Source of the DNA: Haloferax litoreum
Lineage (GTDB): Archaea > Halobacteriota > Halobacteria > Halobacteriales > Haloferacaceae
DNA length: 64,000 nt
NCBI RefSeq assembly: GCF_009674605.1
Contig: NZ_WKJO01000001.1
Span: 62,001-126,000, forward strand
Direction: 5' to 3'
Part shown: in pieces, positions 50,460 to 64,000 of the stretch
How the letters are laid out: each line of letters opens with the position of its first letter
How positions within the stretch are numbered: position 1 is the first letter of the stretch
The notes under the pieces: model-generated
Database searches by the model: none
Seen by the model: only the letters and a program-made list of their open reading frames with translations
Told to the model about the DNA's origin: nothing
Program-made: the position numbers and the translations under genes

Positions 50460-50532
50460 GCCGGTGTAGCTCAGCTGGCAGAGCGATTCCTTCGTAAGGA
50501 ATAGGCCGAGGGTTCAAATCCCTCCACCGGCT
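50460..50532 (+). tRNA. tRNA-Thr (anticodon CGT)
   Basis: A 73-base cloverleaf. Acceptor GCCGGTG pairs with CACCGGC and is followed by discriminator T73. D-arm GCTC/GAGC, anticodon stem ATTCC/GGAAT around TTCGTAA gives anticodon CGT, and T-arm GAGGG TTCAAAT CCCTC. No intron and no encoded CCA. The anticodon reads ACG codons for Thr. The gene marks the left boundary of the integrated element. Confidence 0.96.
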
Positions 50533-50603
50533 TCTACTGATTCCTTAACAATCCCACGAGTCAACTCCAGAGACGAAGGTCTCTGTTCGTGGGGTGGTCT
50601 CGC

Positions 50604-52733
50604 GTGAGCGACGATTCCACCGGTGAAGTCGTCGCTGAGTTCTCCGCACTCGAAGACGCCGAAGTCGTCACTTCCGATAGTGATGACACAGTTGGGTCTT
50701 CGGTCGAGACCGATTATGAACCGGGTTCAACCGTCGACGATAGTGAGGAAGAACCCGAGTTCGAGCTTCCCGAGTTCGTCGCGGCGTGCCGTTACTGCCA
50801 GACGACTTTTGAGACCGAAGAGAATGCGCTTGACCACGAATGGAATTGCGACCTCGAACCAACCGGAGAGTGTCGCTTCTGTGGTGACACCCACATCCGG
50901 AAAGACGATCGCGAGGATCACTTCTATTCCTGCAGCGAAGCCGAGATGCACGAGCGGAGGCAGAAGCGTGGGGTCCGGGCTCGGTCGATGCGCGGACAGG
51001 ACGCCAGGACCACTGCCTCCGGGCTCAGAAAGTTCCTTCTTCCGCAGGCACACGAGTTCTCTGCTTACCTCAAGTGGGACGACTCTCTTTCGACGTACTT
51101 CGGTCTCGTCTCCCTCTACAAAATGCACGACTTCGAAGAGCACGGCCGTCTCCGTGCCGGTCTAGAACACAACGGGGAAGAGTGGAACATTGAGTTTGGT
51201 TACGCCGACAACCCCGGTCTCGCTGTTCCCGGTGAAGATACAGATCTGGGTCCGTACGATTGGCGTCTTGAGGATGTTCCTGAGTTCACCATTCACGTCT
51301 ACCCAGACGCTTACGAGTCGTATACAGATGCGAAAGACGACAACCGCAAGCGTGCGTATTTCCGCGTGCGTCCACGGTGGCCCGGTGTATACTCGAAGAG
51401 TGGGAAGAGTGTACCGAACCCGCACGACATTCTCGGCGTCGACGTCGAGACTCGCGGAAGCTACTTCGAGTTCACTGAGTACCCTTCGCTCCTGTACCAC
51501 GCACTCGACGAACTCGGTGACCGCCAAGAGGCGTTCAACTGGAACTCGTACACAGAAATTAACGCCGAACTCTGCCACCCAGAAAAGTTGCACCGTTCGT
51601 CGAATATCACCGACGCCGAACTCTACGTGCGCGGGAAGAAAGGAGAGACTGGCAAGGTATTCGCGATTGACGGGACGCTACACCGAATCTCGCTGATTCT
51701 CGGCCGTGAGCGGAGCGGATACGCAAAAACTGTTCGCGATGACCGCAAGTGCAAAGGATTCTACCACACTGCTACGATCTGCTCGATGCGTGCCAGCGAG
51801 GTTGTTGGCGATCACAAACTCCCCAAGGAGTTCAAGCACTACCACGTTAAGCACCCGGACGCCGTCGAAGGCACCGAACTCGAAAATCCGAAGATTGGTG
51901 TCTCTTATCAGAACTCACTGCATGACGATGTTCTCCGTTTCAAAGACGTCGACAGGCTCCACAACGAGCTCGAAGAAGGATTGCTGAACGTCCTCAAGTG
52001 GTCCGATATGCCGGTGACGCCGGACCACCAGAAGTACGTTGAGGACGATTATTTCAAAGTCGAAGGTGAGGCCAGGATGGTCAAAATCATCGACAACCCA
52101 CTTCCACGTATTGCCCAACAACAAGACGAAGAGGTTCGCCTCTTCGCGACTGCAGGTAACCTCTACGAAACCGACGTTGCGATTGTCGACGAACTCGTCA
52201 CCGACGGCGGGAACTGGTCTCCTGCCGAACTCGCTGATGCAATCGGCGTCACTCTCGATACTGCCTACAAGTCGCTCAAGCGACTCGGTGACCTCGTCAT
52301 CCGCGAGTACGGTCACGTCGAACTCGCTTCGAAGCATATCGCGAACGGGCTGGTCGAGCATATCGAATCCGCCCGTCGCACTGTTGAAGCGACTCTCGAA
52401 GAGACCGCTGAAGATATCATCCGGGCGGATACCTACGGCGAGAGCGACGACCCGTGGTCGCATTGGCTTCGCCACTGGGTCCGAAATCGAAAAGACGGCG
52501 AGTACAACGAGCGCCTCGAACTCGCCCCACAGAAGTCTCGGTCAGAAATCAAACGCCTCATCCGCTCTGGTGTGAATGCGTGGGCGCAAGTCACCGGAAA
52601 CAACCAAGCCGACTTCGCACACGAGTTTGAGGTTGAGGCTACTGACCTGGATACATCACGGAGACACGTGTTCAAATTCATCGACTTGAAGAATCTCATC
52701 GGCACCAGGAGTGTAGTCAAACTCGCCAGATAG
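50604..52733 (+). CDS. Zinc-finger and winged-helix protein of the integrated element
   Basis: A 709-residue protein with an acidic N-terminus (1-60) and two Cys/His fingers: CRYCQTTF...H...C (C62, C65, H78, C82) and CRFCGDTH...H...C (C90, C93, H106, C110). A long central domain is of unknown type. Near 505-575 a winged helix is visible (ELADAIGVTLDTAYKSLKRLGDLVIREYGHVEL). Either a replication initiator or a regulator is possible. GTG at 50604 is chosen (GTG at 50589 is an alternative). It directly follows tRNA-Thr, a usual site for element-borne genes. Confidence 0.7.
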   Translation: MSDDSTGEVVAEFSALEDAEVVTSDSDDTVGSSVETDYEPGSTVDDSEEEPEFELPEFVAACRYCQTTFETEENALDHEWNCDLEPTGECRFCGDTHIRKDDREDHFYSCSEAEMHERRQKRGVRARSMRGQDARTTASGLRKFLLPQAHEFSAYLKWDDSLSTYFGLVSLYKMHDFEEHGRLRAGLEHNGEEWNIEFGYADNPGLAVPGEDTDLGPYDWRLEDVPEFTIHVYPDAYESYTDAKDDNRKRAYFRVRPRWPGVYSKSGKSVPNPHDILGVDVETRGSYFEFTEYPSLLYHALDELGDRQEAFNWNSYTEINAELCHPEKLHRSSNITDAELYVRGKKGETGKVFAIDGTLHRISLILGRERSGYAKTVRDDRKCKGFYHTATICSMRASEVVGDHKLPKEFKHYHVKHPDAVEGTELENPKIGVSYQNSLHDDVLRFKDVDRLHNELEEGLLNVLKWSDMPVTPDHQKYVEDDYFKVEGEARMVKIIDNPLPRIAQQQDEEVRLFATAGNLYETDVAIVDELVTDGGNWSPAELADAIGVTLDTAYKSLKRLGDLVIREYGHVELASKHIANGLVEHIESARRTVEATLEETAEDIIRADTYGESDDPWSHWLRHWVRNRKDGEYNERLELAPQKSRSEIKRLIRSGVNAWAQVTGNNQADFAHEFEVEATDLDTSRRHVFKFIDLKNLIGTRSVVKLAR

Positions 52734-52873
52734 AGCACGACTGCTGAGTGGCAACACTATCGCTAGTCTAACTTGGCGGCAATTTGTTCCGCATTTCCAG
52801 AACCTTAGCGACTGTATTTTTCTGGACATTGTCTCGACCTTGCAGGGACCGCGTCCGCCGTCACTTCGAATCC

Positions 52874-52886
52874 GGGGGGTCCCCCC
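52874..52886. repeat. Hairpin 1: six G / six C
   Basis: GGGGGG-T-CCCCCC, six-base perfect arms. Confidence 0.6.
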
Positions 52887-52901
52887 TGATTCTCCGTTAG
52901 A

Positions 52902-52923
52902 TGTGTGGCTAAAGAGCCACACA
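52902..52923. repeat. Hairpin 2: nine-base arms
   Basis: TGTGTGGCT and AGCCACACA around the loop AAAG, perfect pairing. Confidence 0.7.
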
Positions 52924-52934
52924 CCAAGATTACC

Positions 52935-52955
52935 GGAGTCTGCTTCGCAGACTCC
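52935..52955. repeat. Hairpin 3: nine-base arms
   Basis: GGAGTCTGC and GCAGACTCC around TTC, perfect pairing. Confidence 0.7.
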
Positions 52956-52980
52956 AGATGAAGCACATGAAACGGAGGTC

Positions 52981-53001
52981 GCCGCGCCTACTCGGCGCGG
53001 C
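52981..53001. repeat. Hairpin 4: eight-base arms
   Basis: GCCGCGCC and GGCGCGGC around TACTC, perfect pairing. Confidence 0.7.
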
Positions 53002-53043
53002 TTGTCTGCGCTGAAATGTCTACTATCCAATCCAAACAAAAAC

Positions 53044-53451
53044 TCAGAATAAAAGTGTAGATAAGTACAATATGGTATAGAGAAGTAACCCACCCAGTAG
53101 GGTCTTCACCATATTTTTAATGCTCATGTCATACTGATTACTATGTCGTAAAAACATACGAATCACGCTCATCGCAATCAATAGCATGAAAACTTCGACC
53201 GCTTGAATTGCATTTTCAATTGCAGGTGAACTGGTTGATCTAATGAGGTGATCACCTAGTTCTTTTCCAGCATAACCTAGTGTCAAGAAGCCTGAGGCTA
53301 CAGTAGCAAGGACCACGTACTCATTTGTGGATTCGTCACCTAATTTCTGGAGTCCGTATTGGCTGATACCCAGCCAGAGGGACAATGCGACGAGAATCGC
53401 GGGATACAAACTGAGCGCAACATTTGTATCAGATATTTGAATATTAATCAT
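53044..53451 (-). CDS. Small membrane protein of the integrated element
   Basis: A 135-residue protein with three to four hydrophobic segments (LSLYPAILVALSLWLGIS, YVVLATVASGFLTLGYAG, AVEVFMLLIAMSVIRMFL and TLLGGLLLYTILYLSTLLF). AT-rich codon use differs from the chromosomal genes. It is divergent from the Ntn-hydrolase gene. I do not recognise the family; a holin-like or immunity-type membrane partner is possible but unproven. Confidence 0.65.
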   Translation of the reverse strand: MINIQISDTNVALSLYPAILVALSLWLGISQYGLQKLGDESTNEYVVLATVASGFLTLGYAGKELGDHLIRSTSSPAIENAIQAVEVFMLLIAMSVIRMFLRHSNQYDMSIKNMVKTLLGGLLLYTILYLSTLLF

Positions 53452-53645
53452 GCATCAGCAATTGAGTTTGGATACTAAACCCACTCCATTATTTCTATGG
53501 ATGGAATAGAGTCATAGTTCACAACCACAAAAACAGGCCCTTCTCGAGTATGAGTGAGACCAGCCGATAACCACAGAGAGTATTATTGTCAAATCTTCCA
53601 AATTTATCGGAAATTCTAAACTTACTCTGGTCATGTTATTCGTTG

Positions 53646-54350
53646 ATGACCGCCATCTTCGCAATGTGTTTGAAAGACGGGGCGTTTATTGCAGCCGACT
53701 CATTAGTGCGGCTTCCCGACGGTAGCACACGTGATATTCAGGACACACCTGAATTCTCCAACAGCAAAATTACAAAAGTCTCGGAGCAATTGGTCTTGAC
53801 GTCTTCTGGAGCTGTCGACACCGACTTCCGCCTTATTGAGTCTCTGAAAACCAACTCACCTTTTGACACAGTAGACGAGATCGGTAGTGAAATCTCCAAA
53901 CTAACAAGGCGGGATCATCAACGAAGTCTTGGAGACGAAGAGAATCAGCAATATGATAGGGAACAGCTCGATTTTCTTGTCCAATTTGGTGGTATTGATC
54001 CAGCCTCGGGAACGGGCTTCGTCGGAAATGTCGTAACGAGAAAAACGCAGAACCGAGACCCATACGAGCCATTTATCTCTAAAGAACCGGGATGGCGGCT
54101 TGCCGCCGGAACAAATCATGATCTCATCACTACTGTTTCGGACCAAGTCGCGTCTAATATTAAGAGACAGCAGGGGCACATCGCCCCAGATCGATGGGCC
54201 TCAACTTCGATTAGCGAGATTTCAAAGCAATCTGACAACGTTAGCCTACCCGCCCACCTTGTGAGCATTACTCAATCGAACGGCTATTATTTCGACGAAT
54301 ATGACACACCACAGCAAAAAAGGAACACCCCGTTTGACGTGACTATTTGA
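53646..54350 (+). CDS. Proteasome-beta-like Ntn hydrolase
   Basis: A 234-residue protein starting MTAIFAMCLKDGAFIAADS. After Met removal, Thr would be the N-terminal nucleophile. Numbered from this Thr, L8-K9-D10 and D17 match archaeal proteasome beta exactly. K40 (SKITKV) and G54 (SSGAVD) match K33 and G47 with a single seven-residue loop insertion. A later AAGTN could replace the GSG strand motif. The fold is thus Ntn-hydrolase, proteasome/HslV type, without a visible propeptide. The substrate and partner are unknown. AT-rich codon use marks it as element-borne. Confidence 0.72.
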   Translation: MTAIFAMCLKDGAFIAADSLVRLPDGSTRDIQDTPEFSNSKITKVSEQLVLTSSGAVDTDFRLIESLKTNSPFDTVDEIGSEISKLTRRDHQRSLGDEENQQYDREQLDFLVQFGGIDPASGTGFVGNVVTRKTQNRDPYEPFISKEPGWRLAAGTNHDLITTVSDQVASNIKRQQGHIAPDRWASTSISEISKQSDNVSLPAHLVSITQSNGYYFDEYDTPQQKRNTPFDVTI

Positions 54351-54528
54351 TACAATCTCGTCGAGAAGATTAACGAACTTAGAAAAACACTTTCCGCTTC
54401 TGTTCAGTGAGTTGTGGGTGATCGGGAAAAGCGACCTATCCGCTCAGCATGTAATTGCGTCAGCATTCAATTATCCTGTTGGATGTTGAGAACTGAGATT
54501 TAACATGCTACATGTTGTTAATCCAACA
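54351..54528. other. Intergenic region upstream of the integrase
   Basis: No gene is supported. A GAGATTTAAC box at 54,493-54,502 lies about 27-36 bases before the ATG at 54529 and is the likely integrase promoter. Confidence 0.4.
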
Positions 54529-55224
54529 ATGTCGGGGAAGAATCTACAGGTGAGAAGTGCTAGACTCGATGCACCCTCTTTTCGCGAGTACCGGATGCTA
54601 AAACATGAAGCTAGACACAAAATTCCAGAGAAGTTTAGAGAGTCAACGCTGTTCGTCCTCGTTTCCATGGGCGAGCTAGGCCTACGCGCAGGTGAAGTCT
54701 CACATATGCGCCAGAGCTGGGTCGACGTCGACAACAAGGTCATCCGGATTCCGTCCTATGAACAGTGTAACCAAGGGCAAGACGGTGGGGTCTGTGGATA
54801 CTGCAAACAACAGGCGAAACAGGCACTTGGCGATGGGAGTTATGATTCGTATGAAGAGGCACTCGCCGACCGATGGACACCTAAAAACGAGGAGTCTGCA
54901 CGGACAGTCCCCTACGGGTGGTCAGATGAAATTGTAGACATCTACGACCGATTCTTCTACAAGCACGACGGGTATCCGTACTGCAGAACCTCAATCAACC
55001 GCCGAATATCCCGACTTGCCGAAGCGTCGGAGATTTTTGACGACCGTAACGACCTTTACCCTCACGCATTCCGGGGGCACGCGGGGAAACTCCATGCTTC
55101 AAATGGAATCAACGCGCTTCAGCTCAAGAAATTCATGGGTTGGGGGTCAGTTCGGGGGGCACTTCCCTATATCAAGATGGCTGCAAAAGACGTTCAAGCG
55201 GCTTTCACGCGAGTTTACGAGTAA
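54529..55224 (+). CDS. Tyrosine recombinase / site-specific integrase
   Basis: A 231-residue integrase with only the catalytic domain and a short N-terminus. Active-site residues visible are Arg in MGELGLRAGEVSHM, an internal CGYCKQQ zinc-like pair, HAFRGHAGKLH (His-x-x-Arg), and nucleophile Tyr near the end in GALPYIKMA. It is like the compact integrases of haloarchaeal proviruses (SNJ2-type). It probably drives recombination at the tRNA-Thr site. ATG at 54529 is preferred over 54505 because of TATA spacing. Confidence 0.85.
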   Translation: MSGKNLQVRSARLDAPSFREYRMLKHEARHKIPEKFRESTLFVLVSMGELGLRAGEVSHMRQSWVDVDNKVIRIPSYEQCNQGQDGGVCGYCKQQAKQALGDGSYDSYEEALADRWTPKNEESARTVPYGWSDEIVDIYDRFFYKHDGYPYCRTSINRRISRLAEASEIFDDRNDLYPHAFRGHAGKLHASNGINALQLKKFMGWGSVRGALPYIKMAAKDVQAAFTRVYE

Positions 55225-55274
55225 CCAGACCCTTGCTCAGATATAATTGAGTCTCAGTCCACTCTTGCACAAGC

Positions 55275-55691
55275 TCACTTAGTTTCGGACCACTCAACCA
55301 ATCCGTCAATGAGTTCCTCACGTACCTGATCCGGAACGTCGGACAGCTTCCACTCAGAGGACTCGACGAAAATCGTAATCGCGTCGCGAGTCGCACGTTC
55401 AGGCACCCAGTACGGGAGAGAATATCCGGGCTCAGATTCGAACTCGATAACGATTCCCGAGTCGGACTTCCAAAGCCAGAGTAGCAAATCGTGGTTCTCT
55501 TTGTGGTAGAAGAGTGCCAATAGCCCATCGTCTTCAAGCACCCCCATGTCATCAGCTTCCTGTTGAGATATTGGGCTTGCCCGTTCCGGGACCCACGTAG
55601 GGGCGTCGTCAAGTGTGTGTTCTCCGTCGCCGTCTTTGACAATCCAGGGACGTTTCAGTTCGTCTTCTTTCCGTTCGGTGTATTCTGACAT
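55275..55691 (-). CDS. Uncharacterised acidic protein of the integrated element
   Basis: A 138-residue protein beginning MSEYTERKEDELKRPWIVKDG, with a PTWVPERA motif twice (near 31 and 94: TWVPERASP, YWVPERATRD) separated by a strand-rich middle (LLALFYHKENHDLLLWLWKSD). The repeated WVPERA suggests two similar structural units. The function is not known. It is convergent with the integrase gene. Confidence 0.6.
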   Translation of the reverse strand: MSEYTERKEDELKRPWIVKDGDGEHTLDDAPTWVPERASPISQQEADDMGVLEDDGLLALFYHKENHDLLLWLWKSDSGIVIEFESEPGYSLPYWVPERATRDAITIFVESSEWKLSDVPDQVREELIDGLVEWSETK

Positions 55692-55770
55692 CGCGCTATA
55701 GTCACACTCAGGGGCTAAAACTCCCCATCTCGCCGCCTTTAGACGCAATCTAGACGTATTGATACATGTA

Positions 55771-58257
55771 ATGGCAAGACTAGGATCAGGCGGTGAGACT
55801 GCACCTGCCGAGGCGCAGGACCCGCCAGACGAAGAGAGAAAAGTGTCCGACAACGACACTTCCTCTAGCGACCCAGTAGGTGGCAACGACCCCGGAGAGA
55901 GCCCGGACCCACTCGGCAGTTCGTCCGGTGGTAGTTCTGGTGGTTCGGCAACTTCGAACGGCGACAATTCTGCAGAACAGGACCGGCAGGCGGTCGAAGA
56001 GCGAAAGCGACAGATGCGCAACGACCCGCCAGAGACGGGTGACGACACTACGCGCAGGCTTCGGAAAGACGCGAACTCAGACCCAATGCGTCAGCAGACC
56101 GAACCCGACCAACCGCAGGGTGGGGAGATGGTAAGAGAGTCAGGCTACAGCGTCGGTAGCCGCGGCCCGATGACCCGACAGGAGGCACGCACCCGCCGCG
56201 CGGTTCGCGAGCAAGTGGCCGAAGAAAACAACGTCGACGTCGGTGACGTCACGGTGAGTCGTGACGAGAACGGCGACACAAACGTGAACCTTCGGCCATC
56301 GGCACAAAGCGAACTTCAACAACGGGCGGAAGAGGACGCCCGACAAGCTCGACGTGCCGAACAGAACAAGGCACGGTCGGCACAGATGGACGTAAGTTCA
56401 CAGTCGGCAGAACCGCAACCTCGACAACAGTCAGGGCCAGTTAACCCGCCGACGCTTCGAACGGTTGCGAAACAGCAAGTCGCGGCCACTGCGTCGGAAC
56501 AGACCGGTCTCGACTACTCACCATCGGACGTCCAGGTAATGGAGAACCCCGACGGTTCTCTTGATGTCGACGTCCAGGAGAAGGAGGCGTTCGACATGGA
56601 TTGGTCGTTCGGACTCGGCGGGCCGGGTGACGAAGTGGAGGACGCAGTGAACTTCGCCAGTCAGACCTACTCGCAGTTCGCTGGCGGCCTCGCCGATGCT
56701 ACAACGTCAACGTCCGCCCTTCGGACGGCCTTCAACCCGAGTGTTGTGTTCCTGCAATCGATGGGCGCGGACGTTGGCACGGTCGCTGAGCGGCCGACGG
56801 GGACTGCCGAGTTCGACACGCCAGAGGAGTTCTTGTCGTCGTACAACGAGCAAAGTTCTCGCGTGGCCTCAAAGACGTTGGAAACACGGTTCGCATCGTC
56901 GGCCCTTTCGTCGTCGTTCGAACTGGTGAACCTCCCCGGACTCGGAAAAGCCGGAATGGAACTCGGCGAGACGGGTGGTGCGGCTGTTAACGACGCTGCT
57001 ACTGGGGATGCCGAGTTCGCTTCAAAGGCGAAGAAGCGGGGAACTGCACTCGGTACGCAAGCCGTCGAGACCGCCACCGAGAATCCGGCCGAGACAGCTG
57101 GAATGGTAGCCGGTTCGCTGGTCGCATCGTCAGCTATCATGTCGGGCGCAGCCAAGATCGGGCCGCGTGCCGGAGCTGCAGCCCGATACGCAATTCAACC
57201 GGGGGAAGAACTCGCCGGGACTCTCGGCTACAAGGCGACGAAAGCGGCAGGTGGCACCCGTGCCGCAGACAAACTGTTCCCCAACCAGGAACCACTGATA
57301 TTCTCGGAAGAGGCGGCCCTGGCGGCCGGTGGAAAGCTTGCAGGAAAGGTGAAAAGCCTCGAATATCAAGACGCAGAGACACGTGCGCGGCCGTCTCGGC
57401 TGGCGCAGGAAATGACGTCGGCCCGGTTCAAAGCCGAAGAGATACTTCGTGCAGGCGGACCCACCCGCGTCAACACTGAGTTGAATACTCCCGTAGCGGA
57501 CAGTCTCCGCCGTGAGATAAAGTCTGCAGAGTTCAAGGCGGCGGAAGGCGCGTCGGCGGCCAAGAGCAAGATTCGAGATATTCAGGACGGTCTCGATGAG
57601 TTCACAGGAGATACGCGGGGGCAAGGTCAAGTCCCCCACTCGAAACTCCGTGGCGAACTTGAGACCGACCAAGGTCCATCGTCGACGTTCCAGTCTGGCC
57701 TTCGGTCGGAGCTAAGCACCGACTTACAGAGTGACCTGCAGGGCGGGTCTCGGGGGGCGGAACTCGGGCGTCCGTCGTCGGACCTCGGCATCAGTACGTT
57801 CCGCTCCGAACTTCGGACCGAACTCGGCGGCCGTGACACTGGGAGTAGTCTTTCGAGCACGATGGAAAGCCCACTCTCGCGGGCGGCTGATGCGCAACGC
57901 CCATCTCTTGACGTCGGGCACGGCATGCGGTCCGACGCACGGACCGACATCTTTGGACGGTCGGACCTCAGCATGGATACGGAACTCGACATGCGGGCAG
58001 AGACGGGCCTTGATCTGCGAAGTGATACCGAACTCGACCTGGGAACAGAAACCGGCCTCGACCTCGAAAGCGAACTGGCGATGGACTTCGAGACGGAACT
58101 TGAGTTCGAGACGGAGCTAGCGACGGAAAGTCGACGAGAGTTCGAAGACACCGGCCTTGACCTTGGCATGGGACCGTCCGGCGGCCGGTCGAAGAAACGA
58201 AAGGCGAGTGCGACGCGGTTGGAACGCGATCTCATCAATCCGTTCACCGGTCGCTGA
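55771..58257 (+). CDS. Large low-complexity element protein, possible structural protein
   Basis: An 828-residue protein. The first ~90 residues are disordered (Ser/Gly/Asp/Pro-rich), followed by charged helices, a central Ala/Gly-rich part with a hydrophobic helix (AGMVAGSLVASSAIMSGAAKIG, about 450-470), then a C-terminal region of short repeats of the type ELRTEL / DLRSDTEL / TGLDLESEL (about 620-800), and a basic tail KKRKASATRLERD ending NPFTGR. It is unrelated to anything I can name. The size and location suit a virus-like or conjugation structural/effector protein, but this is inference. Confidence 0.6.
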   Translation: MARLGSGGETAPAEAQDPPDEERKVSDNDTSSSDPVGGNDPGESPDPLGSSSGGSSGGSATSNGDNSAEQDRQAVEERKRQMRNDPPETGDDTTRRLRKDANSDPMRQQTEPDQPQGGEMVRESGYSVGSRGPMTRQEARTRRAVREQVAEENNVDVGDVTVSRDENGDTNVNLRPSAQSELQQRAEEDARQARRAEQNKARSAQMDVSSQSAEPQPRQQSGPVNPPTLRTVAKQQVAATASEQTGLDYSPSDVQVMENPDGSLDVDVQEKEAFDMDWSFGLGGPGDEVEDAVNFASQTYSQFAGGLADATTSTSALRTAFNPSVVFLQSMGADVGTVAERPTGTAEFDTPEEFLSSYNEQSSRVASKTLETRFASSALSSSFELVNLPGLGKAGMELGETGGAAVNDAATGDAEFASKAKKRGTALGTQAVETATENPAETAGMVAGSLVASSAIMSGAAKIGPRAGAAARYAIQPGEELAGTLGYKATKAAGGTRAADKLFPNQEPLIFSEEAALAAGGKLAGKVKSLEYQDAETRARPSRLAQEMTSARFKAEEILRAGGPTRVNTELNTPVADSLRREIKSAEFKAAEGASAAKSKIRDIQDGLDEFTGDTRGQGQVPHSKLRGELETDQGPSSTFQSGLRSELSTDLQSDLQGGSRGAELGRPSSDLGISTFRSELRTELGGRDTGSSLSSTMESPLSRAADAQRPSLDVGHGMRSDARTDIFGRSDLSMDTELDMRAETGLDLRSDTELDLGTETGLDLESELAMDFETELEFETELATESRREFEDTGLDLGMGPSGGRSKKRKASATRLERDLINPFTGR

Positions 58258-58497
58258 CGTCTGAAGTTGTGGCTCTGTTGAAATCTCCAGAAGATGACAC
58301 GAGTGGTGTGCTGAATATAGAGGGAGAATTCAGCAGACTGCTATCGTTCGTTTCAGCCCGTCGGTGATGAACCACCTAATAGGTAGGTGTCCAAAAACCA
58401 CGGAGTAATCTTCTAAGAATGCTATTGTTCGAGACTTCTTCAGCAGTGGGTTATTTATCAAGTAGATTCAAGAAAGTATGGCTCATCAGATTATTAC
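58258..58497. other. Spacer with IS6-like terminal sequence and promoter
   Basis: No gene is supported. It contains GGCTCTGTTGAAATC at 58,271-58,285, which resembles the ends of IS6-type haloarchaeal insertion sequences. Imperfect hairpin arms GCTGAAT/ATTCAGC at 58,310-58,316 and 58,328-58,334 follow. A TTATTTATC box at 58,451-58,459 is the probable promoter of the AAA gene at 58498. Confidence 0.4.
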
Positions 58498-59796
58498 ATG
58501 AGTGACGAGAAGCTGGCTCTCGTTAATGAAATAGCCGACAGTGGCGACCTCATTGTAGGTTATACAGATGGTTCTGGGTCAGCCACCGTATCTAATTATA
58601 CGGACGATGCCGAAGTCGGTGATATCGTTAAAGTTGAAGAAACAATCTATAGAAGTGACGGTGACAGGGCGGTAGAAGTTGTCAAGAAAGGAGGCTACGA
58701 CCGAGGACGAACGATTGGAGTTGTAGAAGCTATCTTCGACGAGAACATTGCCGTAAGAACGGAAAACGGACTCGCCGAAATCAACCGTCCCGATGAAACC
58801 ATAGAGGAAGGATACACCATCGCAATAACACCTTCTCAAACCTTCTCTCAGGTCTTATCCGAGGACCCCATCGAAATCACGCCCAAGCCAGACCTTGAAG
58901 TAGACGCAATCAACCTGAACCTTGGATCTGACAACGAAGACGAGCAAGAACAAACCAAGGAAAAGAGCCTATACAAACCTGAAAATATCGAAGAGGTCTC
59001 ATTTGACGATGTAATCGGGTTACAGGACGCAAAAGACCGGCTTACAGAGGCAGTGAGCCTTCCAATGGAAAAACCCGACAAGATGGCTGAATTCGATCTT
59101 GAAGGCCGGTTCGGAATTCTATTCTACGGGCCACCAGGCACAGGAAAGACCATGATGGCAAAAGCAGCTGCCAACGAATGGGGATCTTCCGACTCATTCT
59201 TCCATATCGGCGGACCAGAAATAGTGAGCAAATACTATGGAGAGAGCGAACGCCAGATCCGAGATGTTTTCGAAGCCGCTAAACAGAAGGCAGAGGAGGA
59301 AGACAAACCGGCAGTAGTATTCATCGACGAGATTGACAGCGTCGTACCACGCCGGGATCGGGCCGATGAGACGGAACGTCGGATCGTTGCACAGTTTCTG
59401 AGTGAGCTAGACGGGTTAGAGGATCGAGGAGACATCGTAGTGATTGGTGCAACCAACTTGATTGAGGTTATTGATCCAGCGGTGCGACGACCAGGGCGAT
59501 TTGACGAAGAGATTGAATTTAGCTTGCCTGACGCCGGAGAACGAAGAAGTATTCTGAAAGTCCACTCACAGAATATGCCAGTTTCCTCCACTGTGGATTT
59601 CCAGGATATCGCGGAGCGGACTCGTGGATGGTCGGGTGCCGACCTCGAATCCATAGTAAAGAAAGCCGGACTCATAGCGGTCAAGGAAGACAGGCCTGAA
59701 GTTCATCACGAGGACTTCATGATCGCTCTCGAAAGGTTCGATGAGCAAAGAGAGGCCAAACGCAGGCAATTAAAAGAGGTGAGGCAGCAGGAATGA
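58498..59796 (+). CDS. CDC48-like AAA+ ATPase
   Basis: A 432-residue protein with one AAA domain. N-terminal residues 1-125 form a beta-rich part with two OB/TRAM-like repeats. The AAA part follows: FDDVIGLQDAKDRL, Walker A GPPGTGKT (211-218), Walker B VVFIDEID (273-280), sensor ATN (318-320), and VRRPGRFD with the Arg fingers (R330, R334). The C-terminus EVRQQE lacks the HbYX motif of proteasome-activating ATPases. It is likely an unfoldase or remodelling ATPase. The stop overlaps the DUF6414-like gene start (ATGA), so it works with that protein. Confidence 0.88.
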   Translation: MSDEKLALVNEIADSGDLIVGYTDGSGSATVSNYTDDAEVGDIVKVEETIYRSDGDRAVEVVKKGGYDRGRTIGVVEAIFDENIAVRTENGLAEINRPDETIEEGYTIAITPSQTFSQVLSEDPIEITPKPDLEVDAINLNLGSDNEDEQEQTKEKSLYKPENIEEVSFDDVIGLQDAKDRLTEAVSLPMEKPDKMAEFDLEGRFGILFYGPPGTGKTMMAKAAANEWGSSDSFFHIGGPEIVSKYYGESERQIRDVFEAAKQKAEEEDKPAVVFIDEIDSVVPRRDRADETERRIVAQFLSELDGLEDRGDIVVIGATNLIEVIDPAVRRPGRFDEEIEFSLPDAGERRSILKVHSQNMPVSSTVDFQDIAERTRGWSGADLESIVKKAGLIAVKEDRPEVHHEDFMIALERFDEQREAKRRQLKEVRQQE

Positions 59797-61097
59797 CCCG
59801 TCTAAAAATCCGTCAAAAGCTGTATATAGTTGTCACACGGCTACAGCGATGGCTTGCTAATAACCAGTTTGACGATCTCCGAGAATTCGTTTATCTTGAC
59901 GAAATCAGTGTTAGAAGCCTGCTGGCTTCAACCGGAGAGGGAGGTATTGTTTCTGAGACGGTCAATGAGGAGATGCGAAGGCGGCGTTCTGGGTCTAGTG
60001 CAGGTGGTTCAGTATCTGCTGGGGCCTCTGTCAATGCAAAGGTTTCAGAAGAAAGTGAGCACCAAAGGACGACAGTTGAGACTCGGAACTACGACTTGAT
60101 TCAGTCAAAGTTTACGAGGCTGTACAAGAGCGATGTAGTAGAGAAGAAGCTGTCACTGGATCGGATACCGAAAGAAGATGAATCTGTAGACGACCCGTTT
60201 TCAGGTCTTGCAACATCCGAGTTGACTCGTGGTGATGTAGCCGAGCTTCGAGTGAACATTTCTGCGAATCTCTTATTCAGACTCTATCGGACTATTGATT
60301 ACTTCGCTGACGCATTCGAAGATCAAATTGATTCAGATACCGAAGAAATGCTGGAGCTAATCGGCAGCAGTCTCGGTAATCGTATTCCGGTTGTTGGCAA
60401 GGCTGTTGACTACGAAGTCGTTGACGAAGGCGACGGGCAGACGATCAAACGCAGTACTGAAATTGATGACGACGAGGAAGCGCAGGGTTTGGAGGTTGTT
60501 ACACTGCTTAATTTGGATAGTCTGTGGGTTGACCCGATACAGACCTTATTCAACAATGATCGGTTCGTGATTTACTGTAGGGTGGAAGATGTAGACATTG
60601 ATCGTTGGTATCCGTTGAAGGTGACTCGTGCGATTAACAGTCTCTCAGAGCCGGCTGCGGAGAATTTGAACCGGGAGTTCGAACGAGGACTGCAAGATGT
60701 AAGGAACCAGTTATCTGAGATTCAGAATTTCACCGACTGGTCTACTGATTCAGCTGCAAGGTGGAGCCGAGATATTCAGCAGTACACTGAATCTTTGGAA
60801 GAGGAGTACGATCAAGATGTTTCTGATGATGAACAGGAACAGTTGATTGTAGAGGCTTTGGGAACCGTTGATATTGGCGAGGAGGTTAGCCAAACGGCAA
60901 AACGAAAGAGAATTCTTAACGCGTATACAGATGCGTTCATCAAGATGTTTGATCTAAATCCTATCGGTGATGAGAAGCGTCAACAGTTACGGTCAGACGC
61001 TTCAGCAACTGGCGGAGCTGGTGATCAGGAAGATGCATCAGACGAGAGTAGCAATGTATTCCGAATTGAAGCGAAAACCGTAGCAATGTACTGGTGA
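59793..61097 (+). CDS. DUF6414-like partner of the AAA+ ATPase
   Basis: A 434-residue protein. Residues 25-60 read LREFVYLDEISVRSLLASTGEGG, resembling the DUF6414 N-terminal signature as I recall it. A Ser/Gly/Ala-rich strand near 70-85 (SSAGGSVSAGASVNAKVSE) follows. The middle is alpha/beta with a hydrophobic core (ELRVNISANLLFRLYRTIDYF), then a charged coiled coil (RGLQDVRNQLSEIQNFTDWS, ESLEEEYDQDVSDDEQEQL). No enzyme motif is seen. The start overlaps the ATPase stop (ATGA). Function unknown; partner or target of the AAA protein is the inference from coupling. Confidence 0.7.
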   Translation: MTRLKIRQKLYIVVTRLQRWLANNQFDDLREFVYLDEISVRSLLASTGEGGIVSETVNEEMRRRRSGSSAGGSVSAGASVNAKVSEESEHQRTTVETRNYDLIQSKFTRLYKSDVVEKKLSLDRIPKEDESVDDPFSGLATSELTRGDVAELRVNISANLLFRLYRTIDYFADAFEDQIDSDTEEMLELIGSSLGNRIPVVGKAVDYEVVDEGDGQTIKRSTEIDDDEEAQGLEVVTLLNLDSLWVDPIQTLFNNDRFVIYCRVEDVDIDRWYPLKVTRAINSLSEPAAENLNREFERGLQDVRNQLSEIQNFTDWSTDSAARWSRDIQQYTESLEEEYDQDVSDDEQEQLIVEALGTVDIGEEVSQTAKRKRILNAYTDAFIKMFDLNPIGDEKRQQLRSDASATGGAGDQEDASDESSNVFRIEAKTVAMYW

Positions 61098-61196
61098 GGC
61101 AGACATCGAGATATTCAGTATCTTCTAATCAGCACAGAGGACTCGTTTATTCCGTCTCACCCACGCTGAACTAACCATTAGGTAGCACCTGTATGT

Positions 61197-61598
61197 TTAT
61201 TTGAATGAGTCAGCGTATTTATCAAACCAATCTTCCCCATCGTCATTTTTCCCATCGGATACCGAATGAGATGAGAATTGCCAACGATCACTACTTTCTT
61301 TTGAGGGTTGCCAACTACCACTACTATCTGTTTCAACATTTTCAACTTTGAATTTGTCAGCATCAACTTCGCTAATGAAAGAGAGACTACCAATATACCA
61401 ATTCCACATATATCCGGGGGAAAATTGTCCTGAAGATTTCATCTTCGATACTATCAAATCGGATGTGAATTTCTCATTAAATATTTCTTCAAAAATGGGT
61501 TCAAATTCTACCGCCTTATCGGCGATCATATTAGCTCCACTTTCAGTACATCCGAACGTTTCCTGAAGTTGCTTAACAAGCTCAGTCCGCTTAACCAT
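61197..61598 (-). CDS. Small acidic protein of the element
   Basis: A 133-residue protein beginning MVKRTELVKQLQETFGCTESGANMI. The first half is helical; the second is Ser/Asp-rich with repeated SSGSWQPSKESSDRWQFS. AT-rich codon use. It converges with the DUF6414-like gene 100 bases away. No family is recognised. Confidence 0.55.
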   Translation of the reverse strand: MVKRTELVKQLQETFGCTESGANMIADKAVEFEPIFEEIFNEKFTSDLIVSKMKSSGQFSPGYMWNWYIGSLSFISEVDADKFKVENVETDSSGSWQPSKESSDRWQFSSHSVSDGKNDDGEDWFDKYADSFK

Positions 61599-61894
61599 AT
61601 ATCAATGAGAAATAGTCAATGTCAAAAAATCGTTGCTTGATACGGCGATTGGCTGTTCTGAGCGATTCGATTCTCTCGTACTGGTCGCTATGTCAGCGAC
61701 CAACTCGCGCGTTGTATTCAGCACGACAGCGGAAACCCATCACCGATTGAGGGTTTCAACAATGCCGAAGTTGTTGACCTATCACGACTTTTTTTTTGTT
61801 AATCCGGCGGTGTGCGGGGAGTTCGCCGGTCTGGACGCTGTTTCACCCGACCGAACCTTGGTGTCATGCCCTTAGGATGGGCACTCGGCGGCGG
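61599..61894. other. Non-coding region with a nine-T tract
   Basis: No gene is supported. A long T run (about 61,790-61,798) and a region of mixed composition are seen. The T tract could be the terminator of a plus-strand transcript. Confidence 0.35.
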
Positions 61895-62161
61895 CTATTC
61901 TTCGCCAACCGAGTATGCCGTCTCCGCACGCACGGGGAGATAATCTGTGTCGAGAACTTCGGCAATCTCCTCGGGCGTCACACTCCCCTGTTCCTTCGCC
62001 CGTGCAAGAAGTTGCTCGAGCTGGCCGTCTCGGTGTGCCCCGGCCATCGCAATGTAGAACTCCACTGCCCGGTCGATGGCCTTCGACTTAGTGTTCTCCG
62101 GCGAAGCCATCATTAGTTCGTCGAACCGTGCCTTCCGCGCCTCAGTATCCCTGATTCTCAT
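61895..62161 (-). CDS. Ribbon-helix-helix-like small protein (DUF7386-type)
   Basis: An 88-residue protein starting MRIRDTEARKARFDELMMASPENTKSKA, then IDRAVEFYIAMAGAHRDGQLEQLLARAKEQGSVTPEEIAEVLDT. The start resembles ribbon-helix-helix DNA-binding proteins, with TKSKAIDRAV in the helix region. It is like haloarchaeal DUF7386 proteins. It may be an element-encoded DNA-binding regulator. Confidence 0.6.
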   Translation of the reverse strand: MRIRDTEARKARFDELMMASPENTKSKAIDRAVEFYIAMAGAHRDGQLEQLLARAKEQGSVTPEEIAEVLDTDYLPVRAETAYSVGEE

Positions 62162-62386
62162 TGTACACACATCCTCTCTGTAGTGGTGATTCTCGTCTCA
62201 CCGAAACGTTTCTCGTATATATACCAATAAGAGAAAGCAGTTGTTCGTCCTCTCGTCGACGCAGTGATTCGGCCGCGTCGAGTGCGTTCTTACACACGCC
62301 GATTCTCGCGGAGTGTGCAATTCGACAGAACTCATTTTGTCGACGTCTCACCCCGTGCAGTCGCACCGAAACACCTACTCTTGAGT

Positions 62387-62638
62387 CTACTCCTCCTCCG
62401 GGTCTTTGGTTAGTTCGTACAACCCGGCGTGCAACTTTCGGACGTATCCATGCTCAACAAGGCGGCCAAGACGATTGGTTACATTCTGTCGGCTGTAGTT
62501 CTGCTCGCTCGCAATGTACGCAGGACTGCAGCGGCCCTCTCGCAGCATCGACAGTATCGCACGGTCTGTGGGGTTCAGATCAATATCCTCCATGCTCACC
62601 GCTTGATGCGACGAGTGTATCAGTATGTTCGTCTGCAT
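62387..62638 (-). CDS. PhiH1-like winged-helix repressor
   Basis: An 83-residue winged-helix protein: MEDIDLNPTDRAILSMLREGRCSPAYIASEQNYSRQNVTNRLGRLVEHGYV, then KKLHAGLYEL. This is the phage PhiH1-repressor type frequent in haloarchaeal proviruses. The ATG at 62638 is adopted; an internal ATG at 62593 (MEDIDL) is an alternative. The flanking inverted repeat (62,616-62,625 and 62,656-62,665) could be its operator, one arm lying just inside the gene. Confidence 0.75.
   Translation of the reverse strand: MQTNILIHSSHQAVSMEDIDLNPTDRAILSMLREGRCSPAYIASEQNYSRQNVTNRLGRLVEHGYVRKLHAGLYELTKDPEEE
62616..62625. promoter_or_regulatory. Left arm of repressor inverted repeat
   Basis: TGTATCAGTA, the exact reverse complement of TACTGATACA at 62,656-62,665; the two arms flank the repressor start. 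Confidence 0.5.
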
Positions 62639-62655
62639 TCATATTAGTAGTTTCG

Positions 62656-62665
62656 TACTGATACA
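62656..62665. promoter_or_regulatory. Right arm of repressor inverted repeat
   Basis: TACTGATACA, reverse complement of the arm at 62,616-62,625, located in the upstream region of the repressor gene. Confidence 0.5.
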
Positions 62666-62862
62666 TTGTAAAGAATTAAGTCATTGCCCAGTTGACTAAC
62701 CAGTATCATCGGAAGTTCGGCTGTAGAAGGCCGACAGGCGCGGGAACGCCTTCGACCGGTGGTAGGAGAACCACCAATGGTAAAATCGACTGGAAGAGGG
62801 AAGAATCCAACGGAAGGCCGTACCGAAAGTAAACCGAATATCTCTGACAGGGGTGCAGGTGG

Positions 62863-63153
62863 ATGAGTTCCGCACGTGCGGGTGGGATGATTTGCACCCA
62901 CTGTGGGAAGTTCGTCGACAACTTCGCCCGGCACGTTGGCCGTGAAGAGTGCTCGGCCGTCGGGTTCGTCAACCGGGGCACCACCGGTGTCGACCCTCAC
63001 CAAACCGAGTTCGCTACGTCCGTCCGCATGATCACGTGGGACGACGTACCGACGTTAGAGGACGCACCCGACGGCGTGCACGGCGACGACGGTCTCGACG
63101 ACGTCCGGGAGCTGGCCGACGAACTCGAAGCCGAAGGCGTTTGGCCAGCGTAA
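62863..63153 (+). CDS. Small zinc-finger protein of the element
   Basis: A 96-residue protein with a Cys-Cys-His-Cys finger, CTHCGKFVDNFARHVGREEC near 11-30, followed by an acidic tail (DDGLDDVRELADELEAEG). A GC-rich, chromosomal-like composition contrasts with neighbours. It may bind DNA. ATG at 62863 is used; Met9 is an alternative. Confidence 0.65.
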   Translation: MSSARAGGMICTHCGKFVDNFARHVGREECSAVGFVNRGTTGVDPHQTEFATSVRMITWDDVPTLEDAPDGVHGDDGLDDVRELADELEAEGVWPA

Positions 63154-63514
63154 CGCGCGCACGGACTGTCCTGTGTCGGCCTAGGGAGCCACGATACAGA
63201 ATGTATCGACACCCACCGGAGTGACCGGGACGTCTCGGAAGCAATGGAATGGCGGGGCAAAGAGAACTCAGCTGCTCGCCCTTGGAGGGACCGGCCGGGA
63301 AGTCTGTCACTGCTGACGGGCAAGGCCACTATTCTTTATCCACGTGTTTGGTCGATTGTTCACCGATTTCTGAACAGTGCACTCGTACTCCCAGTGTTAG
63401 CTACCGGACCTCTCTCCCCACTCTCCCATATAGAACGACCAGGTACTGCTATTAACACCTGGATTTGAGAAACGAAACTGGCAGACTGCGGTGATTTCAC
63501 ACCGGCATAGGATG
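63154..63514. other. Non-coding region between zinc-finger gene and terminal gene
   Basis: No gene is supported. It contains the inverted repeat CCAGGT (63,439-63,444) / ACCTGG (63,457-63,462) and an 11-base direct repeat GATTTGAGAAA at 63,462-63,472 and 63,533-63,543, the second inside the next gene. The inverted repeat could help end the minus-strand transcript. Confidence 0.35.
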
Positions 63515-64000
63515 TTAGCCCCGTTGATTATAGATTTGAGAAATGCGCGAGCGGCTCAGACCAACGGCCTCGCCTACTTTCCCCTGTGGAATCCCCACCT
63601 CGACCATGTCGCATATCATCCCATTTCGGAGTTCTGTCTCAACTTCCTGCTTTGCGTTGTCAACCATCTCCTTGGCCTCAGAACGCTGTATGAATCCGTC
63701 CCCTTCTTTTCCACGGAGACGCGATTCTTTCTCTTCAGTCAGGTGCTTGTACACCGAATTAACAGAGTGACTCTTCGGTATCGGGTCCCACTCAAGCGTC
63801 CCCATACTTCTCGTCATTGGGTGGCCTGCGTGTGGGTTCCAATCCATCCGAAAAACGTTCGCGAAGCCTCTCCGTTCAACAAGAATCCAGACGTCGACGA
63901 GTGATTTCAGGTCGCCGTCAACGAGGTGGTCTGCCGGTGCGTTCATAATGAGGTATTTTTGCTCAACGCGCCCCGTTGCCACCAACTCCCGAATTGCCTT
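63515..64000 (-). CDS. HTH-containing protein (5' end cut by window)
   Basis: The reading frame is open through base 64,000, so the N-terminus lies beyond the window. Visible parts are KSLVDVWILVERRGFANVFRMDWNP, a charged middle (HLTEEKESRLRGKEGDG), and a C-terminal helix-turn-helix, GIPQGKVGEAVGLSRSRISQIYNQRG. It is a probable DNA-binding protein of the element, perhaps in replication or regulation. The family is not recognised. Confidence 0.6.
   Translation of the reverse strand, partial: KAIRELVATGRVEQKYLIMNAPADHLVDGDLKSLVDVWILVERRGFANVFRMDWNPHAGHPMTRSMGTLEWDPIPKSHSVNSVYKHLTEEKESRLRGKEGDGFIQRSEAKEMVDNAKQEVETELRNGMICDMVEVGIPQGKVGEAVGLSRSRISQIYNQRG

Follow-up and report, generated by a model that had tools for sequence, protein, structure and literature searches.

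Gene content of the locus

The window analysed here is the whole stretch of 64,000 nucleotides from Haloferax litoreum. On its plus strand, positions 53646 to 54350 encode a protein of 234 aa, called P0001 in the following, which begins with Met-Thr (MTAIFAMCLKDGAFIAADS...NSKITKVSEQLVLTSSGA...) and is translated without internal stop codons. In 2000 composition shuffles no equivalent of this open frame occurred. In-frame TTG codons that may offer alternative starts are present at 53586 and 53643; the ATG at 53646 is the supported start, because the Marinomonas homologue P0002 described below and all phage relatives begin with MT in the same register. An initial annotation made from the letters alone had read the gene as a beta-like Ntn hydrolase without propeptide. 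Its residue assignments agreed exactly with our recount: numbered from the Thr with the Met removed, P0001 contains T1, L8-K9-D10, D17, K40 and G54, and the last two are displaced by seven positions relative to K33 and G47 of proteasome beta. The protein starts directly with MT, which supports the absence of a propeptide.

The codon for the presumed N-terminal nucleophile, Thr1 after removal of Met, is located at 53649 to 53651 and its residue is invariant in an alignment of 32 relatives (A2). Asp18 (mature D17; 53697 to 53699), assigned from A2 and from the residue count, is the equivalent of the catalytic Asp. Lys41 (mature K40; 53766 to 53768) corresponds to proteasome Lys33, is invariant in A2 and is in register with haloarchaeal beta, and Gly55 (mature G54; 53808 to 53810), equivalent to the oxyanion Gly47, is nearly invariant; all four codons are on the plus strand. 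Ser129 of the proteasome is replaced by Thr (within AGTN), and the equivalents of D166 and S169 are ambiguous.

The gene lies on an island behind a tRNA-Thr (CGT) gene (50460 to 50532, plus strand) that is conserved in relatives and forms the left edge. Synteny with four genomes of the same genus ends at 50532, the end of the tRNA gene, and restarts at 68913. The strain-specific island of 18.4 kb thus extends from 50533 to about 68912, past the end of the window, with the part from 50533 to 64000 inside it. The corresponding interval of the four relatives is occupied by different DNA of 1.1, 4.7, 7.7 and 11.4 kb, which identifies the place as a site of variable integration and the Ntn gene as strain-specific cargo. 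Counting all five genomes of the genus, the inserts downstream of tRNA-Thr(CGT) are unrelated and range from 1.1 to 18.4 kb. The G+C content of the island is lower (48% for the Ntn gene versus 63% for a flanking gene). We looked for a second copy of the 3' end of tRNA-Thr, which would mark an attachment site, and detected none. The acquired island supports the earlier suggestion that the gene resides on a mobile element. The placement outside the normal proteasome operon was likewise correct: the host retains an intact, separate proteasome, whose alpha1, alpha2 and propeptide-bearing beta genes occupy other positions of the same contig (2.2-2.9 Mb).

Just downstream of the Ntn gene a tyrosine recombinase/integrase of the short form (239 aa) is encoded at 54505 to 55224 on the plus strand (Pfam PF00589, E=8.9e-10; phrog_1, 7.6e-14); its relatives are annotated as site-specific integrases and occur on haloarchaeal plasmids. 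A Halorussus gene adjoining a related integrase was considered as a homologue of P0001 and rejected, as it is not an Ntn gene. Upstream and divergent, at 53044 to 53451 on the minus strand, lies a gene for a small orphan protein that appears membrane-like from its sequence and has no established link to the Ntn gene. Directly behind the tRNA gene (50589 to 52733) we found a gene of haloarchaeal virus or plasmid type with a match to DUF7845 and PHROG_3288 ('transcriptional regulator'). The protein encoded at 55759 to 58257 has 832 aa and a highly charged, repetitive C-terminus, and it belongs to no family in Pfam, PHROGs, NCBIfam or PADLOC.

An AAA+ ATPase is encoded at 58498 to 59796, on the same island and strand as P0001. 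It is a Cdc48/VCP-like protein with a single AAA ring, and both genes could in principle form a mobile unfoldase-protease pair. We consider such a pair very unlikely, since the genes are separated by 4.1 kb and two further genes, the ATPase is translationally coupled to a DUF6414 gene, no Ntn gene occurs within 8 kb of the ATPase/DUF6414 pair on haloarchaeal plasmids, the ATPase sequence reads without a C-terminal HbYX motif, and for none of the new proteasome homologues did Fuchs et al. find an AAA+ partner (PMC8665760). Because of the coupling and the occurrence of the pair elsewhere without an Ntn gene, ATPase and DUF6414 are probably a module separate from P0001. Both genes (58498 to 61097) overlap by 4 bp. 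On plasmids of Natrinema, DL31 and Halorussus the pair is found near HEPN, HNH or restriction genes and may therefore be a defence module; PADLOC labels the ATPase IetA.

Homologues and ancestry of P0001

P0001 showed no match at a useful E-value to any family in Pfam, NCBIfam, PHROGs or PADLOC or to the sequences of the PDB. The gathering cut-off of Pfam PF00227 (Proteasome) was not reached, with no match at E<=1, and the profile PHROG_1040 (peptidase HslV family) gave no score. Used directly as the query, P0001 retrieved no homologue from 450 haloarchaeal genomes, IMG/VR, plasmids, phages or GTDB contigs (by exact peptides); about 18 of the weak class-level matches were translated and inspected, and these look like chance.

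We therefore list here the relatives obtained with a degenerate DNA pattern for the N-terminal motif, MT-I...DG...AAD[ST]. Among 391 haloarchaeal genomes the sole in-frame match was the P0001 gene itself, and two others had no usable frame. Nearly every match in viral contigs opened a frame of at least 90 aa that reads as an Ntn protein, and more than 100 stand-alone phage proteins starting with MTTI..DG..AAD[ST] were collected in this way; all four representatives tested belong to PHROG_1040. A stricter pattern that included the Lys identified P0002 in Marinomonas sp. UCMA 3892, a full-length homologue with 25% identity over 213 aligned aa (pairwise E=2e-15). Since the N-terminal pattern biases which relatives are found, significance was tested with the motif removed. 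The score between P0001 and P0002 persisted without the 19-residue motif (Z=14, 2000 shuffles), so their homology is independent of the search pattern; both proteins have AGTN, D[RK]W and V.xP..LV in common. Compared with the phage families alone, the part of P0001 after the motif gave no significant score.

Profile comparisons connected P0001 with the wider family. A profile built on 30 further stand-alone Ntn proteins, with P0001 and P0002 left out, detected P0001 with E=2.7e-5, compared with about 3 or worse for the unrelated decoys among 2636 ORFs, and also recovered haloarchaeal beta and alpha subunits. With a sister profile including P0002, P0001 was the single match within the window. 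Haloarchaeal beta subunits that had been collected independently aligned with the combined profile of P0001 and P0002 over 130 columns, beginning at the mature Thr1 (P=2e-4), and D17, K33, G47 and the GG.D..G strand stayed in register; the same profile aligned with a group of bacterial stand-alone homologues (L216, L213 and L220) at P=1.2e-7. The match of P0002 by itself to Pfam Proteasome was weak (E=0.018) and began at profile position 5. Homology of P0001 to the proteasome-like Ntn family is seen only via profiles or via P0002.

Five residues, T2, A16, A17, D18 and K41, are invariant across the 32 relatives in A2, where T, D and the motif had been preselected by the first pattern and the Lys had not been preselected for the phage members. 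Conservation of Thr, Asp and Lys in homologues, proposed earlier as a check of the Ntn reading, was consequently observed. Within the subfamily itself residue conservation rests on two sequences, because P0002 is the one intact homologue known. Further relatives of P0002 were sought in 195 + 369 gammaproteobacterial genomes and in viral contigs and none was found; the P0001/P0002 family is rare.

Proteasome alpha subunits are examples of Ntn-fold proteins with a structural or binding role, and P0001 could similarly be a catalytically dead or non-proteolytic member. The unclear D166 and S169 equivalents, the Thr in place of Ser129 and a subfamily defined by two intact sequences, with a broken relative in Sphingomonas, are in line with this explanation. 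Yet both intact members, and distant relatives too, retain T1, D17 and the K33 and G47 equivalents, which a dead member could freely lose, and we regard an inactive protein as unlikely.

In a tree and in the profile comparison P0001 and P0002 were nearest to the bacterial stand-alone homologues mentioned above and away from archaeal alpha and beta subunits and from the phage families. Owing to long branches, good support (99/96) is confined to the pairing of P0001 with P0002; this pairing itself joins two long branches and is confirmed independently by the pairwise test. Haloarchaeal beta is about 23% identical to P0001 over the aligned part. A true archaeal beta subunit was rejected in view of the MT start without propeptide and the grouping, on long branches, with bacterial homologues. 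The earlier term 'beta-like' therefore holds for the active site and fails for the ancestry.

The bacterial loci and two further archaeal proteins provided additional observations. The P0002 gene is preceded by genes that read as transposase-like and integrase-like, and the broken copy in Sphingomonas adjoins transposase genes on a plasmid. Directly 3' of P0002 a 145-aa protein consisting mostly of 11 GGxYTGPGG repeats is encoded (L217:7194-7631); no such repeat protein was present at the other Ntn loci examined. The Ntn gene of Bradyrhizobium shares 4 bp with the gene before it, which encodes a putative SocA/Panacea-type antitoxin domain (locus L220:1107-1538), and the poribacterial Ntn gene lies immediately 5' of a putative type I restriction methylase subunit gene (locus L219:1250-4428). 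Two small haloarchaeal proteasome-like proteins without propeptide, L194 and L199 (MATIVGIEADGGAVLAGD..., MSTVVAIQTDHGVVIAGD...), group beside archaeal alpha and beta and represent a separate stand-alone archaeal family.

Predicted fold and comparison with known proteasome homologues

The AF2 model of P0001 from the single sequence was meaningless (pLDDT 32). Guided by A2, the model reached a mean pLDDT of 64, with about 80 over residues 1-90 and an unreliable region at 102-158. The order of its elements, strands, H1-H2, strands, H3-H4 and strands, corresponds to an alpha-beta-beta-alpha sandwich with two helix pairs at moderate confidence, and helices are predicted at residues 57-69 and 76-98. 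In a Foldseek search all of the best 50 PDB matches belonged to proteasomes, with probabilities reaching 1.00 (best E 2.6e-3; TM about 0.46, range 0.37-0.56), and the top named viral structure was a phage HslV-type protein. As the model was steered by an alignment of Ntn proteins, it is not independent evidence; with this qualification, the sandwich that the initial annotation had named as a check is present and matches proteasome subunits.

The missing matches in curated libraries and the meaningless single-sequence model would suit a protein that is not an Ntn hydrolase and carries its N-terminal match by coincidence. Against this stand the homology outside the motif, the profile match relative to decoys, the register with beta subunits and the fold, which make a coincidence extremely unlikely. 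Homology, profile match, conserved residues and predicted fold instead support the assignment as Ntn hydrolase: P0001 has the N-terminal Thr (Thr/Ser in the family) and the equivalents of Asp17, Lys33 and Gly47 that are characteristic of proteasome-like Ntn proteins.

Lone proteasome homologues have been known since 2021, when Fuchs, Alva and Lupas described 22 new ones from prokaryotes and phages (PMC8665760). These homologues (PPH, AAH, WPH, PHI, GPH, PMI and others) have no propeptides, AAA+ partners or known function, and more were predicted (PMC8665760). P0001 has in common with them the T1/D17/K33/G47 active site, the absence of a propeptide, the stand-alone gene, the sporadic spread, often via phages or transfer, and the co-occurrence with other proteasome-like proteins. 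In contrast to the clusters of 2021, which were compared by description, P0001 and P0002 match no library and are rare; P0001 is a new divergent member on a small unnamed branch. GPH (Gammaproteobacterial Proteasome Homolog) is found mainly in Gammaproteobacteria and in some Euryarchaeota (PMC8665760), a published host range that fits the combination of Marinomonas and a haloarchaeon.

The phage proteins of PHROG_1040, which include PPH-like ones, also have the MT start, DG...AADS and the K33 and G47 equivalents. P0001 differs from them in its length (234 versus about 140-210 aa), in the prediction of both first helices and in the lack of a profile score. It is not a PPH, as these have about 140 residues and no helix H2. 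With haloarchaeal beta (L028 in the host genome) P0001 has the active-site register and the fold class in common, but it lacks the propeptide and the partner alpha genes of the latter. Fold and catalytic logic are also common to HslV, Anbu, BPH and connectase; P0001 differs in that there is no HslU neighbour, no connectase insertion and no close sequence similarity.

As connectase demonstrates, a stand-alone member can function as a monomeric ligase (PMC8665760), and an unfoldase partner is absent for P0001, so that a highly specific, connectase-like protein ligase or amidase instead of a degradative protease has to be considered. The hallmark of connectase, two helices inserted between strands 3 and 4 (S3-S4), is missing in P0001, which has just 7 extra residues between D17 and K40, and we judge a function of this kind quite unlikely.

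Proposed function

Taken together, P0001 is very probably a divergent stand-alone proteasome-like Ntn hydrolase that was acquired on an integrated island. Methionine aminopeptidase would remove Met1, which the Thr at position 2 allows, and thereby expose the nucleophile Thr1. K40 would lower the pKa of Thr1, D17 would position the pair and the backbone of G54 would provide the oxyanion hole, and cleavage of a peptide or amide bond would proceed by an acyl-enzyme route. Because P0001 has neither a propeptide nor a partner alpha gene nor a dedicated unfoldase, it is most likely to form homo-oligomers or small assemblies, which may act on unfolded or specific peptide substrates. The protein would then be accessory cargo that benefits the element, apart from the proteasome of the host.

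A more far-reaching idea is that P0001 and P0002 constitute a new proteasome-like subfamily found on mobile DNA of haloarchaea and marine Gammaproteobacteria, whose role would lie with the element, for example in the cleavage or ligation of one particular host or viral protein, and not in general turnover; this is conceivable, albeit rather improbable. If the preferred reading of P0001 as an active stand-alone hydrolase is correct, the protein would be a small single-gene threonine hydrolase operating in high salt, and its substrate could reveal for what purpose mobile elements use proteasome-like enzymes, a question that has been open since the survey of 2021.
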